Below the pieces are notes generated by a model. That model searched no databases. It was given only the letters and a program-made list of their open reading frames with translations, and was not told where the DNA came from. This document shows positions 5,490-58,720 of a DNA stretch of 64,000 nucleotides, piece after piece; position 1 is the first letter of the stretch, and each line of letters begins with the position of its first letter. Source of the stretch: Gammaproteobacteria bacterium (lineage in GTDB: Bacteria > Pseudomonadota > Gammaproteobacteria > Burkholderiales > Gallionellaceae); the NCBI GenBank assembly GCA_018813765.1, contig JAHJBC010000002.1, positions 124,001 through 188,000 of the forward strand, in the 5' to 3' direction. A program made the position numbers and the translations under genes.

Positions 5490-6842
5490 CTACCAGTACG
5501 GATAACCGCCCGTTTTGTCACCGTCATCCTGCCCGGGCGTGCGCGGTTTGGACGGACTCTGTTTGCTGATGAAGTTTTTGGACATGGTGAGGAAGAGCGG
5601 AGTTGGGCAGACCAGGCGTGAGCAGACCTTGGCGATGAAGGCGGCCGCCATCAGCGGCAAGATCATCTCGTGATTGTCCCGCATCTCCATCACGATCACG
5701 AACGCGGTGATCGGCGCCTGGGTGACACCGGAAAAGTACGCGACCATCCCGAGAATGATGGTGGCGCCAACCGGGACGGAAGTGAAAAAGTGCGCGATGT
5801 TGGCACCGAGCCCCGCACCGGCGGAAAGCGTAGGCGCCATGATGCCGCCGGGAATGCCGCTGATATAGGAAATAGTAGTCGCCACCATCTTCAGCAGGCC
5901 GAAGCTTTCCGGCAAAGCGTCATTGCCATCCAGTAACGATCTGGCTTCGTTGTACCCGCTGCCGTAAGTGGAGCCGCCTGAAGCGAGTCCAACGAGCGCC
6001 ACCGCCAGGCCACAGACTGCCGCGAAGGTCACGGGTTTGGCGCGCATCCATGCCCCCAGACGTCCCACCAGTCCTTTGTTGACCTCGATCAGGATGCGGC
6101 TGAATCCGCCTCCCAACAGGCCGCCGAGAATGCCGCAGACGATGACGACATTCCATTCGCTGCCGAAAGCGAGCGTTTCGGAAGTGCGGCCGAAATAGGA
6201 GTAGTTTCCCAGCAGGGCAAGCGAGGTGATACCGGCGATGAGCACCGTCATCAGGATGGTCGTGCTGTTGTGCTCCTCGAACGAGCGGCTCATTTCCTCG
6301 ATCGCAAACACAATGCCGGCCAACGGCGTATTGAAAGCGGCGGCAACACCGGCGGCAGCGCCGGCCAGGATCAGGCCCTTTTCCACATCGTGCTGCGGGA
6401 AGCGTGCCAGCTTACCCATGTTATGCATGATGGAGGCGCCGATCTGCACGGTTGGGCCTTCGCGCCCGACCGATGCGCCAAAGAGAAACCCCATCACGGC
6501 GAGCACGACCTTGCCAAGGGTAACGCGCAGTGACAGCACCTGCTTGCGGATTTCGTCGCTTTCGTTGGGATCCAGCGTAGCGATGGCCTGCGGGATGCCG
6601 CTGCCTTGCGCGCCGGGAAAATACTTGCGGGTCAGGTAGACGATCAGCGCGAGACCAAGCGGTGTGAGTACCAGCGGCAGATAGGGCGAAATGGTCAGCA
6701 TCTTGTGAAACATGCCGTTCGCCCATTCGCACACAATCGCAAACAAAATCGCGGCAAGCCCGACACTCACCGCCCCGATGCCGAAAACAAGCCGACGTTT
6801 CCAGACCAAAATCGATTCTTCATCCAGCAGTGGCAATTTCAT
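5490..6842 (-). CDS. ClC-family chloride channel/transporter
   Basis: A 450-aa inner-membrane protein of the ClC family. The chloride-selectivity motifs are present in order: GSGIPQ at about residue 80, GREGP at about 125 with the gating glutamate, and GGIMAPTLSAGAGLG at about 335. The AIEEMSRSFEEH stretch matches the region of the internal proton glutamate of the E. coli exchanger, so Cl-/H+ antiport is more likely than a simple channel. Near the end, PTPLF has Phe where many members have the chloride-coordinating Tyr (PTPLY). There is no C-terminal CBS pair, unlike many longer members. The ATG at 6842 has only a weak ribosome site. Flanking genes give no clue to a pathway; acid resistance or ion homeostasis is inference. 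Confidence 0.9.
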   Translation of the reverse strand: MKLPLLDEESILVWKRRLVFGIGAVSVGLAAILFAIVCEWANGMFHKMLTISPYLPLVLTPLGLALIVYLTRKYFPGAQGSGIPQAIATLDPNESDEIRKQVLSLRVTLGKVVLAVMGFLFGASVGREGPTVQIGASIMHNMGKLARFPQHDVEKGLILAGAAAGVAAAFNTPLAGIVFAIEEMSRSFEEHNSTTILMTVLIAGITSLALLGNYSYFGRTSETLAFGSEWNVVIVCGILGGLLGGGFSRILIEVNKGLVGRLGAWMRAKPVTFAAVCGLAVALVGLASGGSTYGSGYNEARSLLDGNDALPESFGLLKMVATTISYISGIPGGIMAPTLSAGAGLGANIAHFFTSVPVGATIILGMVAYFSGVTQAPITAFVIVMEMRDNHEMILPLMAAAFIAKVCSRLVCPTPLFLTMSKNFISKQSPSKPRTPGQDDGDKTGGYPYW

Positions 6843-7044
6843 CGCAATAAATTAACGGGACTACGTCAACAATGGATTCGATTCTCGATAGCCGAATCAA
6901 ACAAGCGCATCTGTTTCAGCACGGAATCGCCACTTCGCCGCTGGCAATCTTGCTTGGCACTGCAGAATACACATGGGCTGAAAGCATAAAGCAAAACGAC
7001 GCTTGCCACCATGAGTTTGAACGCCTGAGGGTGGCGCGGAAGCT

Positions 7045-23506: not shown

Positions 23507-23569
23507 CCCTTCGACAGGCTCAGGGCGAACGGCTTGCCCTCACCCCAACCCTCTCCCAGCGGGAGAGGG
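23507..23569. repeat. Two short dispersed repeats between ettA and the DUF4160 gene
   Basis: CCCTTCGACAGGCTCAGGGC plus GAACGG (23507-23532) is followed by CCCTCACCCCAACCCTCTCC, which continues into a hairpin CCCTCTCCC/GGGAGAGGG (to 23569). Both motifs are known as abundant intergenic repeats in many proteobacteria. The second occurs again at 55616-55648, inside the start of hpnE. Confidence 0.8.
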
Positions 23570-23581
23570 AGTAAGAGGTGG

Positions 23582-55607: not shown

Positions 55608-56959
55608 GAAGCTTTCCCTCACCCCAACCCTCTCCCAGAGGGAGAGGGGGCAGTCGCGAAGAGCAATCTCTGAACCCTGCGGTAATCGGCGGCGGCTACG
55701 CCGGCATGGCAGCCGCTGTTGAACTGGCCGCGAACGGCATCCCCGTCACTGTCTTTGAAAGCGCCAGGCAGCTCGGCGGCCGCGCCCGCGGCGTACTTTA
55801 CAACGACACGCAGCTTGATAACGGCCAGCACCTGCTGCTCGGCTGTTATCGCGAGACGCTGGGGCTGATCGAACTGGTCGGCGGCAATGTCGAAAGGGAT
55901 TTCCTGCGCCTGCCGCTGCAACTCGACCTGCACGGTCACTTCTCGCTGCGCGCGCCCCGCCTGCCCGCCCCGCTCCATCTGCTGGCCGCTTTGCTCAATG
56001 CACGGGGATTGAGCTGGAGCGAGCGCCTGAAAGCAGCGCGCTTCATGCTGACCCTGCGCGGCATGGATTTCCGCCTGCCGCACGACATGACGGTCACCGA
56101 ACTGCTCCAGCAGCATGGACAGGATGCCGACCTGGCACAGAAGTTATGGGAACCGCTGTGTATCGCCGCGCTGAACACCCCGATGCAAAAAGCTTCCGCG
56201 CAGGTGCTGCTCAACGTGCTGCGCGACGCGCTGAACCGCAAGCGTGCCGACAGCGATATGCTGCTGCCGCGCATCGATTTCACCGCGCTGTTCCCGCAAC
56301 GCGCCGCCGCATATGTGGAGCGGCATGGCGGTAAAGTCCATCTCTCTTGCGGGGCGGAATCCATCGTTCCTAAAGATTCCGGCATCGAGGTCGTCACGGC
56401 ACTGGGCGCGCAGCGATTCAGCCATGTCATCTGCGCCACCTCCCCGACCGTCGCAGCCGGACTGCTGCGACCGCATGCCGCGCTCGCGGAAACCGTCAGC
56501 CGCATCGACGCACTGGAGCAGCAGCCGATCTACACCGTCTACCTGCAATACCCGGCTCAGGTGCGCTTGCCGCATGCCATGATCGGACTGCATCGCAGCT
56601 ACAGCCAATGGTTGTTCGACAAGGGCTGTATCGCCGGGCAACACGGCCTGCTCGCTGCCGTCATCAGCGCCGAGGGCATCCATCAGGAGCTGTCGCAGGA
56701 CGAACTGGCGCAAAAGGTCATCACCGAGTTGGGCCGGGAATTCGGCATCGAAGAGATGCCGCAGTGGTTCAAGGTCATCGCCGAAAAACGCGCCACCTTC
56801 TGCTGTTCGCCCGCACTGCAACGACCTGCACAGCTCACCGCGATCCCCGATCTGCTGCTGGCAGGCGATTACACGGCGGGCGAATATCCGGCCACGCTGG
56901 AGGGGGCGACACAAAGCGGCCTGCGCTGTGCCGGCCTGTTGCTGCGGAATCGGTCCTGA
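55592..56959 (+). CDS. hpnE: Hydroxysqualene dehydroxylase HpnE with repeat-derived N-terminus
   Basis: An FAD-dependent amine-oxidase-like enzyme that reduces hydroxysqualene to squalene. PAVIGGGYAGMAAAVELAAN is the FAD-binding GxGxxG, then LGGRARGVLYNDTQLDNGQH; the C-terminal LLLAGDYTAGEYPATLEGAT is the conserved 'GD' motif. The only in-frame usual start codons upstream of this motif are ATG 55592 and GTG 55574, both before a dispersed repeat at 55616-55648. The repeat is read as SPQPSPRGRGGSREEQSLNP, an added stretch of about 30 residues. The ATG lies inside hpnD. Other options are a CTG at about 55669. The rest is intact. Confidence 0.9.
   Translation: MAKELRSFPSPQPSPRGRGGSREEQSLNPAVIGGGYAGMAAAVELAANGIPVTVFESARQLGGRARGVLYNDTQLDNGQHLLLGCYRETLGLIELVGGNVERDFLRLPLQLDLHGHFSLRAPRLPAPLHLLAALLNARGLSWSERLKAARFMLTLRGMDFRLPHDMTVTELLQQHGQDADLAQKLWEPLCIAALNTPMQKASAQVLLNVLRDALNRKRADSDMLLPRIDFTALFPQRAAAYVERHGGKVHLSCGAESIVPKDSGIEVVTALGAQRFSHVICATSPTVAAGLLRPHAALAETVSRIDALEQQPIYTVYLQYPAQVRLPHAMIGLHRSYSQWLFDKGCIAGQHGLLAAVISAEGIHQELSQDELAQKVITELGREFGIEEMPQWFKVIAEKRATFCCSPALQRPAQLTAIPDLLLAGDYTAGEYPATLEGATQSGLRCAGLLLRNRS
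55616..55648 (+). repeat. Dispersed CCCTCACCCCAACCCTCTCCC repeat within hpnE
   Basis: CCCTCACCCCAACCCTCTCC continues CCAGAGGGAGAGGG, the same motif as 23537-23569. It starts eight bases after the hpnD stop and is in the hpnE reading frame. The hairpin CCCTCTCCC/GGGAGAGGG could affect translation of hpnE. Confidence 0.85.
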
Positions 56960-57202
56960 GCGGCACCTGCGCACAGCAGCAATACTGTCAGCCATTTTCC
57001 CTCCGGCCTTTTCCTGAAATTTACAGCACGATCGAATTTCATCCGTTGCCCAGTTTGCGCGACTGCATATATACGCAGCGGCAAGGTAGGTGCATACCCC
57101 ATTGTCCGGATGCATGCCACGGCTAATATTCGACACATGTCGGCAGGCCCGGCTGCAAGCAGCAGGCGACGCCACGATGACAAACGAACGCAAGGAGATG
57201 CC

Positions 57203-57700
57203 ATGTCAGCCACACATCCGACCGTACTGGCAGTAGACGACGAACCATTCAATCTGAGCTTGATGGACGAGCTGCTGAACCGGGATTACATCGTGCAGAA
57301 AGCCGGCAACGGCCCGGATGCGATCAAGCTGGCTTTCACCACCCCGCCCGACCTGGCCCTGATCGACATCATGATGCCCGATATGGACGGCTTCGAAGTC
57401 TGTCGCTTCCTGAAAAACAATCCCGCGACACGGCACGTGCCGGTCATTTTCATCACGGCCAAGGACGATATCCGCGACGAGGAGCGCGGATTCGCCATGG
57501 GCGCTTCGGATTTCATCCACAAACCCATCAGCGCGCCCATCGTTCTCGCGCGTGTCCGGGCGCATATCAAAATCAAATTCATGCAGGACTACTTGCGCAG
57601 GAAGAATTCCCTGTTGATCAAGAGTGCCGACGAAAAATCGGCCGAATTGCAGCAGTTGAGGGACTTCATGTGGGGATCAGACATGCTGGCCCGGCGTTGA
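57203..57700 (+). CDS. Single-domain response regulator with C-terminal helix
   Basis: A 165-aa protein with one receiver domain: AVDDEPFNLSLMDELLNRDY gives the acidic pocket, Asp55 in LALIDIMMPDMDG is the phosphoacceptor, and SDFIHKPISAP the conserved Lys. After residue 125 a charged helix (VLARVRAHIKIKFMQDYLRR) forms the dimer or partner contact, but no output domain exists. CAAGGAGATG precedes ATG 57203; a frame to 57110 is unneeded. It may dock to another enzyme in a relay; its kinase is not evident, though the hybrid kinase at 39004 is a candidate by function only. Confidence 0.88.
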   Translation: MSATHPTVLAVDDEPFNLSLMDELLNRDYIVQKAGNGPDAIKLAFTTPPDLALIDIMMPDMDGFEVCRFLKNNPATRHVPVIFITAKDDIRDEERGFAMGASDFIHKPISAPIVLARVRAHIKIKFMQDYLRRKNSLLIKSADEKSAELQQLRDFMWGSDMLARR

Positions 57701-57722
57701 GTCAGGTCGCAGCGCGGCACCA

Positions 57723-58610
57723 CTATTCAGCCATGTCATCTGCACCATCCCGCCGGCCGTCGCAGCAGCTCTGTTGCGTCCGGCGCAATCTCCCCGGCCT
57801 GAAGTAATCCGTGTTGTCGTAATAGGCCGCATCTTCGTTGTCCGCGCTCCACCCCGGCACCCCCAGTAGAGGCACCGGCATCAGCTCCCGGGTACTGCGG
57901 CAATGTTCCGGCGCAGTCAGATATTGCGCCACTATGCCGTCCAGATGCGCCAGCCGCCGCACGAGCGACCAGGCAAAGAACTGCTGCTCAACCGGCAGCA
58001 GCAGGCCTTGCCCGGTCATGCCGATATAGGGATGCAATGCCTTTTCATACAGTCCGTGACCGAACAGATAGAACCCCATACTGTCTTGCACTTCTGTCCG
58101 TCTTTGCCAGAACAACTCCTTCCAGCGAAAGTCGCGCAACAGTCCGGCCAAATCTTCTCTTGCATACGGCACGACGACACCGGATTCGTCCAGCAGCGTA
58201 TTGGTGTCGCGCACCGCACCGCGCTGGCTGCATGTCATTTCATCTTGCGGTCCGGTCAGCGCCTGATAATGGCGCACGTTGATTGCGGCCTTGGCCTTGG
58301 GGAAGGCGAACCACACCAGTGCATTGAGCAGGTCGTGCCAGTTGTTCTCTCGCGTCGGCACTTCGCCCTTCAGGTAGCAGCGCGGCTCGTATTGCGACTC
58401 GAACGGCAGCTTGCCGTATTCCTGTGGCACGAATCGCAGGGACAACCCGGAATGCACGGTGATGGCGGGAGATAGTTGCGCGAGCAACCCGTTGCAGTCC
58501 TGCAGGCTCGGAAAGCGCTCCCCCCCGAGCAGGCTGACTGGCAGATGCAGCGGAGCAAAAAATGGATCGCGCAACAGCGCTTCCTTGTTCCAGGCGGGTG
58601 TCGTATTCAT
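57723..58610 (-). CDS. DUF3025-domain protein with foreign C-terminal extension
   Basis: A 295-aa protein (MNTTPAWNKEALLRDPFFAP; start 58610). The body has the DUF3025 phrases FVPQEYGKLPFESQYEPRCY, NNWHDLLNALVWFAFPKAKA, LTGPQDEMTCSQRGAVRDTN and GHGLYEKALHPYIGMTGQGL. The natural end seems to be DNTDYFRPGR; the last ~20 residues (RTQQSCCDGRRDGADDMAE) are the antisense reading of an hpnE remnant at 57725-57783, so the native stop was lost. Function unknown. No clear operon. Confidence 0.85.
   Translation of the reverse strand: MNTTPAWNKEALLRDPFFAPLHLPVSLLGGERFPSLQDCNGLLAQLSPAITVHSGLSLRFVPQEYGKLPFESQYEPRCYLKGEVPTRENNWHDLLNALVWFAFPKAKAAINVRHYQALTGPQDEMTCSQRGAVRDTNTLLDESGVVVPYAREDLAGLLRDFRWKELFWQRRTEVQDSMGFYLFGHGLYEKALHPYIGMTGQGLLLPVEQQFFAWSLVRRLAHLDGIVAQYLTAPEHCRSTRELMPVPLLGVPGWSADNEDAAYYDNTDYFRPGRLRRTQQSCCDGRRDGADDMAE
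57725..57783 (+). pseudogene. Fragment of a second hpnE-like gene
   Basis: ATTCAGCCATGTCATCTGC opens a stretch matching hpnE bases 56416-56474 at about 83% by eye (10 differences in about 58). It reads FSHVICTIPPAVAAALLRP, compared with FSHVICATSPTVAAGLLRP in hpnE. It lies at the end of the DUF3025 gene, antisense to it, with no surrounding open frame. Confidence 0.75.
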
Positions 58611-58720
58611 GGGCGATAGTGTAGCCGATGCGCGCCCCGCAACACATTCACGGCAGCTTGTGGTAATTTGCGCCCTATCAGCCCATAGCGTCATGCGATT
58701 GATCCGCAGAAGGAGGGAAC

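Follow-up and report, generated by a model that had tools for sequence, protein, structure and literature searches.

A probable remnant of a second hpnE copy underlies the C-terminal tail of a DUF3025 protein in a Gallionellaceae genome

The window analysed here, a 64,000-nucleotide stretch of a gammaproteobacterial genome assigned to the Gallionellaceae, carries hpnC, hpnD and hpnE in this order, followed by a stand-alone response regulator (RR), a short hpnE-like stretch and then, on the opposite strand, a gene for a DUF3025 protein (Table 1). The resident hpnE is complete, scoring 455.8 bits against TIGR03467 (cut-off 283.05). A palindromic REP-like repeat (CCCTCACCCCAACCCTCTCCC...) lies at 55615-55660, just after hpnD and within the predicted N-terminus of hpnE, and another copy was found at 23535-23580, near 23549. 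A homology search with the spacer between hpnE and RR returned three matches, all at E values of 0.26-0.90 and none significant. Relatives found to encode the DUF3025 protein include Sideroxydans, Gallionella and Gallionellaceae.

Table 1. Features of the hpnE/DUF3025 locus, given in window positions.
Feature	Start	End	Strand	Basis or remark
hpnC	53959			ORF list and domain/family profiles
hpnD	54774			ORF list and domain/family profiles
Resident complete hpnE (hydroxysqualene dehydroxylase)	55574	56959	+	TIGR03467; start codon uncertain
243-bp spacer, hpnE to RR	56960	57202		no significant homology
Stand-alone response regulator (RR), without a sensor ORF after it	57203	57700	+	
Putative hpnE remnant, equivalent to approximately residues 281-301 of the resident ORF	57723	57782	+	genome search, hpnE profile, shuffles
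DUF3025 tail past FRPGR, 21 residues, mostly antisense hpnE	57726	57788	-	
Probable deletion joint	57774	57784	+	suggestive only
DUF3025 gene (PF11227)	58610	57723	-	stop TAG (57725-57723) inside the hpnE remnant
cNMP-binding protein	58721			
ParA-like ATPase	59328			

When 111 bases around the site were searched against the whole 3.14 Mb genome, 57725-57782 matched 56416-56473 in the window's own hpnE with 83% identity over 58 bases (E 1.7e-10; G000:C8:180416-180473), which was the sole real match besides the query itself, the remaining 12 matches listed having E values of at least 0.566. A DNA profile of hpnE, built from the window gene and its relatives, likewise found the stretch within 1.7 kb (57000-58700), starting at 57722 (E 9.1e-11) with the well-aligned part reaching to about 57782, and the local alignment score of 66 was attained in 0 of 1000 dinucleotide shuffles (maximum 32). 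A chance match is ruled out by the genome-search E value, the profile and the shuffles, and a repetitive element by the copy number, which is only two genome-wide at the search sensitivity used. The original prediction, a match to hpnE of about 58 bases at 57725 with about 83% identity, was thus correct in coordinates and percentage, and it withstood statistical alignment. In the hpnE frame the stretch translates as FSHVICTIPPAVAAALLRP, the corresponding part of the own gene as FSHVICATSPTVAAGLLRP. As is typical of a gene remnant, it has significant similarity to part of hpnE, and an intact hpnE occupies the same place in relatives. These comparisons support the proposal, also made originally, of a lost second hpnE-like gene or a partial duplication: the stretch appears to be part of a second copy of hpnE.

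Of 33 other genomes of the genus, 26 carry hpnE and DUF3025 on one contig and were counted; left out were G002, G012, G019 and G023 (no DUF3025 match), G010 (contig end), and G020 and G025 (genes on different contigs). In 14 of the 26, an intact hpnE runs convergently into DUF3025, and the overlap of the two genes, measured by their stop codons, amounts to 76 nt in 13 genomes and to 91 nt in one; G070, which belongs to another genus, has the 76-nt overlap too. In the 14 relatives, the C-terminal residues of hpnE (LCLPGRK, for instance) lie antisense to the FRPGR of the DUF3025 protein, and the extension past FRPGR that derives from the overlap measures 18 residues in 13 relatives and 23 in one, giving tails of the type QSRAQCDPLSTAPSSVAG that are antisense to the hpnE 3' end. 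Example junctions are 6804-6879 of locus L067 and that of L244; for an overlap between bacterial genes, 76 nt is of unusual length and constancy. The genes lie apart in the other 12 genomes: the distance is 693-778 bp in seven of them, 170 bp in G026 and 7.5-7.9 kb in G021 and G017; in G028 and G008 a phospholipase-D-family ORF separates them (PF13091 checked in the G028 copy). The junction content differs by species (a phospholipase-D-family ORF in L066 and L090; L069, L076 and others), resembling an insertion hot spot. Outside the genus, four genomes had both genes in the stretch read; in three of these (G128, G077, G091) the genes are near each other without overlap, the fourth being G070.

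A tree of 28 genomes, built from the hpnE, DUF3025 core and CAP proteins, placed the window as sister to ((G028,G008),(G014,G007)), with support of 91 for this group, 99 for the group plus the window and 65 for (G014,G007); it rests on three linked genes, and hpnE looks mosaic in places. Since G014 and G007 carry the overlap, the window lineage most likely descends from an overlapping ancestor, and we take the overlap to be probably ancestral in this lineage. Twelve of the 26 genomes of the genus, as well as G128, G077 and G091, do without the overlap, so it may also have been gained repeatedly.

PF11227 ends at residue 274 of the 295-residue DUF3025 protein of the window, which is the last R of FRPGR; the 21 residues beyond are LRRTQQSCCDGRRDGADDMAE. 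Its stop codon, TAG, lies antisense to the hpnE-frame codon CTA at 57723-57725, and this codon, preceding FSHV, is CTA in the remnant and in G028 and CGA in the window's own hpnE. The frame had been thought to be extended by about 20 residues of antisense hpnE past its natural end. The tail and its mostly antisense-hpnE origin stand, but the notion of a natural end does not, as 14 of 26 relatives already run beyond FRPGR. By the same token, a stop-loss extension is not what we find: the DUF3025 proteins of these 14 relatives already extend into antisense hpnE, those of the other 12 do not, and the window would therefore represent a tail swap. For a broader view we considered 80 DUF3025 loci listed (at least 80 exist, and some are from the same genomes as our G-numbered set), two of which, without a stop, were left out. 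As to whether other DUF3025 proteins end at FRPGR, the 78 counted carry tails of 2 to 30 residues past it (median 8; at most 10 residues in 46, 11-20 in 28 and more than 20 in four). Words of the window tail longer than three residues occurred in 0 of these 78 loci; PSSVAG, from the antisense-hpnE tail, was present in 11 of the 78.

The remnant sits where the overlapping hpnE of relatives would be, in the same orientation. Over 57723-57782 the remnant, the own hpnE and the hpnE of G028 are equidistant, with 49 of 60 positions identical in each pair, and at the 11 sites that distinguish the remnant from the own hpnE, the base prevailing among the four nearest relatives is found in the remnant at four, in the own hpnE at four, and is undecided at three. 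The equal distances and the retention of majority bases argue that the remnant is no recent copy of the present hpnE; judged by these comparisons, it is an old, separate copy. A look at coding constraint, resting on few sites, gave 5 of 19 residues differing between remnant and own hpnE, compared with 1 to 3 for G008, G028, G014 and G007, whose DNA is about as distant. Aligning the overlapping hpnE 3' end of relatives with the window in register with FRPGR implied an internal deletion of 461 nt, a length not divisible by three. All 13 of the 13 overlapping relatives examined gave this value, G001 having been left out for want of an internal anchor. The putative joint lies near the short word TGCGNNCG, which 3 of the 13 (G014, G007, G022) have twice, once inside hpnE and once at the 3' end of the gene. 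In G022 and G006 the match of the DUF3025 end continues gapless to 57774, into the former overlap. For the 17 nt before FRPGR, agreement with the ancestral register was 8, 9, 11 and 8 of 17 in four of the 13 relatives (G014, G007, G022 and G003), with 78, 22, 5 and 72 of 1300 placements, respectively, doing as well, so the location of the joint is suggestive only.

Among 158 family genomes, with four candidates considered per genome, no second genome with the remnant was found. In 15 genomes besides that of the window the match was largely confined to the remnant part, and in all 15 it lay inside their hpnE. Three more matches (G180, G022, G006) were DUF3025 ends running into the remnant part, and in G022 and G006 the part matched is the overlapping hpnE end. 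We also considered G180 as a second carrier, its match running from the DUF3025 end to 57756, yet the hpnE profile matched nothing at this locus at E <= 1, and the protein there terminates in FRPGRRG. The full second amine-oxidase gene beside DUF3025 that had been suggested as a thing to look for in relatives was not seen at E <= 1e-40, a cut-off outside which scraps fall. At this cut-off, the only genome of the genus with two hpnE matches was G031, where they are the two parts of a single split gene. In the rest of the family, two matches were obtained in 13 genomes, with the second place given for all but three, and among the matches listed only G171 had two of near-full length, on different contigs. 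No intermediate was found in the genomes searched, and a search for a DUF3025 fossil behind the resident hpnE gave no significant match.

RR offers a hint as to how two hpnE copies could have come to flank it. Its homologues in G090, G080 and G022 are 70-71% identical, and in the five loci read (L177-L181, of 19 fetched) the RR homologue is followed by a sensor-type ORF. In G090 the order is hpnE, about 250 bp, RR and a hybrid sensor ORF with sensor, PAS, HisKA, HATPase, receiver and Hpt domains; the best match of the N-terminal part of this ORF in the window genome is 29% identical. An RR devoid of its sensor, together with the hpnE-RR-sensor order of G090, makes integration of an hpnE-RR(-sensor) piece attractive. 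The G090 hpnE is 72% identical to that of the window. Kinship of the hpnE-RR spacer with the G090 spacer was considered and dropped, 45 of 300 shuffles being as good. Homology-facilitated illegitimate recombination would leave a foreign segment joined by homology on one side and illegitimately on the other; in our scans along the resident hpnE we saw no clear foreign block or donor. For the last 105 nt of the resident hpnE the nearest sequence is that of G082, from another genus (0.80, next 0.76), but the stretch is too short to weigh. We regard integrated hpnE-RR DNA and a tandem duplication with later insertion of RR as about equally probable sources of the second copy.

Taken together, we consider it rather probable that the scrap is an old overlapping hpnE copy cut down by deletions, whereby one antisense-hpnE tail was exchanged for another. 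The ancestor would have had a single hpnE, tail to tail with DUF3025 in a 76-nt overlap. A second hpnE with RR would then have arrived upstream, either as DNA comprising an hpnE end and RR that integrated via homology at one anchor, or through a tandem duplication into which RR was inserted later. The downstream copy, in the old overlapping place, would have become redundant and worn away: its 5' part was presumably lost, and a deletion of about 461 nt may have taken most of its 3' part, leaving some 60 bp. The same deletion would have exchanged the DUF3025 antisense-hpnE tail, the CTA codon providing the new stop. This course of events is favoured by the overlap in relatives, the orientation and place of the remnant, the place of the window on the tree, the equal distances, the residue differences, the constancy of 461 nt in 13 of 13 relatives, the gapless matches of the G022 and G006 DUF3025 ends and the RR without a sensor. 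It is weakened by the weak match at the joint, the occurrence of the joint word in 3 of 13 relatives, the four-to-four split of majority-base sites, the lack of overlap in 12 of 26 genomes of the genus and in three of other genera, the tree from three linked genes, the want of a clear donor, the dissimilar G090 spacer and the lack of an intermediate.

A longer second hpnE might never have existed if repair or rearrangement in the vicinity of RR had copied some 60 bp from hpnE as a templated insertion. The shortness of the recognizable stretch, only about 60 bp, would be in line with this, as would the failure to find a longer second copy at the site in any genome searched. However, chance would have had to give such an insertion both the position and the orientation of the ancestral hpnE, and it must be old, since bases absent from the own hpnE are kept; we therefore consider it possible but unlikely relative to decay of an overlapping copy.

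Two further readings ascribe a use to the stretch, both of which we consider very improbable. The 76-nt overlap might constitute a regulatory antisense pair, the window lineage keeping the complementarity in trans in that about 58 nt at the 3' end of the DUF3025 mRNA pair with hpnE mRNA, regulate hpnE and tune hopanoid/squalene synthesis, for which reason the antisense stretch would be kept. The predicted duplex (-121.4, versus a shuffle mean of -81.3 and a minimum of -98.8 in 100 shuffles) is consistent with such pairing, and complementary 3' ends also exist in relatives with the overlap; yet 12 of 26 genus genomes do without the overlap, the residues of the remnant diverge more than those of intact hpnE genes, and pairing is predicted simply because the two stretches are 83% identical. 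Hardly more credible is a selected function of the new tail for the DUF3025 protein: the frame is open over 21 residues and the tail comes close in length to the 18-residue tail of 13 overlapping relatives, but it lies outside PF11227, and tail lengths of 2 to 30 residues among 78 relatives show how variable this end is. No tail function is indicated by its position outside the Pfam domain or by the varying lengths, and the tail is most likely neutral. The remnant most likely does nothing beyond encoding it. Overall, this is ordinary genome decay.

Among the matches listed in our literature search, no paper title dealt with the hpnE/DUF3025 pair. According to the available extracts of PMC4161906, gene overlaps in bacteria are often lost and convergent overlaps require moved stop codons; extracts of PMC2478687 report that 54 of 178 convergent overlaps longer than 60 bp might be real, and both sources, to this extent, portray long convergent overlaps as often doubtful and sometimes real. 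Our locus resembles the overlap turnover described in these extracts (PMC4161906, PMC2478687) in the loss of overlap and the moved stops, and differs in that the separated pair still holds a fossil of the partner gene. A related model, homology-facilitated illegitimate recombination as outlined in extracts of PMC5361080, has homology-anchored incoming DNA push the old end of a gene downstream, where part of it remains. A displaced 3' remnant downstream would be the common feature, whereas the latter model concerns effector ends and immunity genes in Vibrio and the window a biosynthesis gene with no donor identified. The remnant would thus be a small example of a long convergent overlap that was broken up and left a fossil behind. 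It also cautions that an odd C-terminus in a predicted protein can stem from antisense leftovers of a neighbouring gene. The 76-nt overlap, with overlapping genes in 14 of the 26 genomes of the genus and also outside it, in one other genus, is useful for asking how real long bacterial overlaps are.
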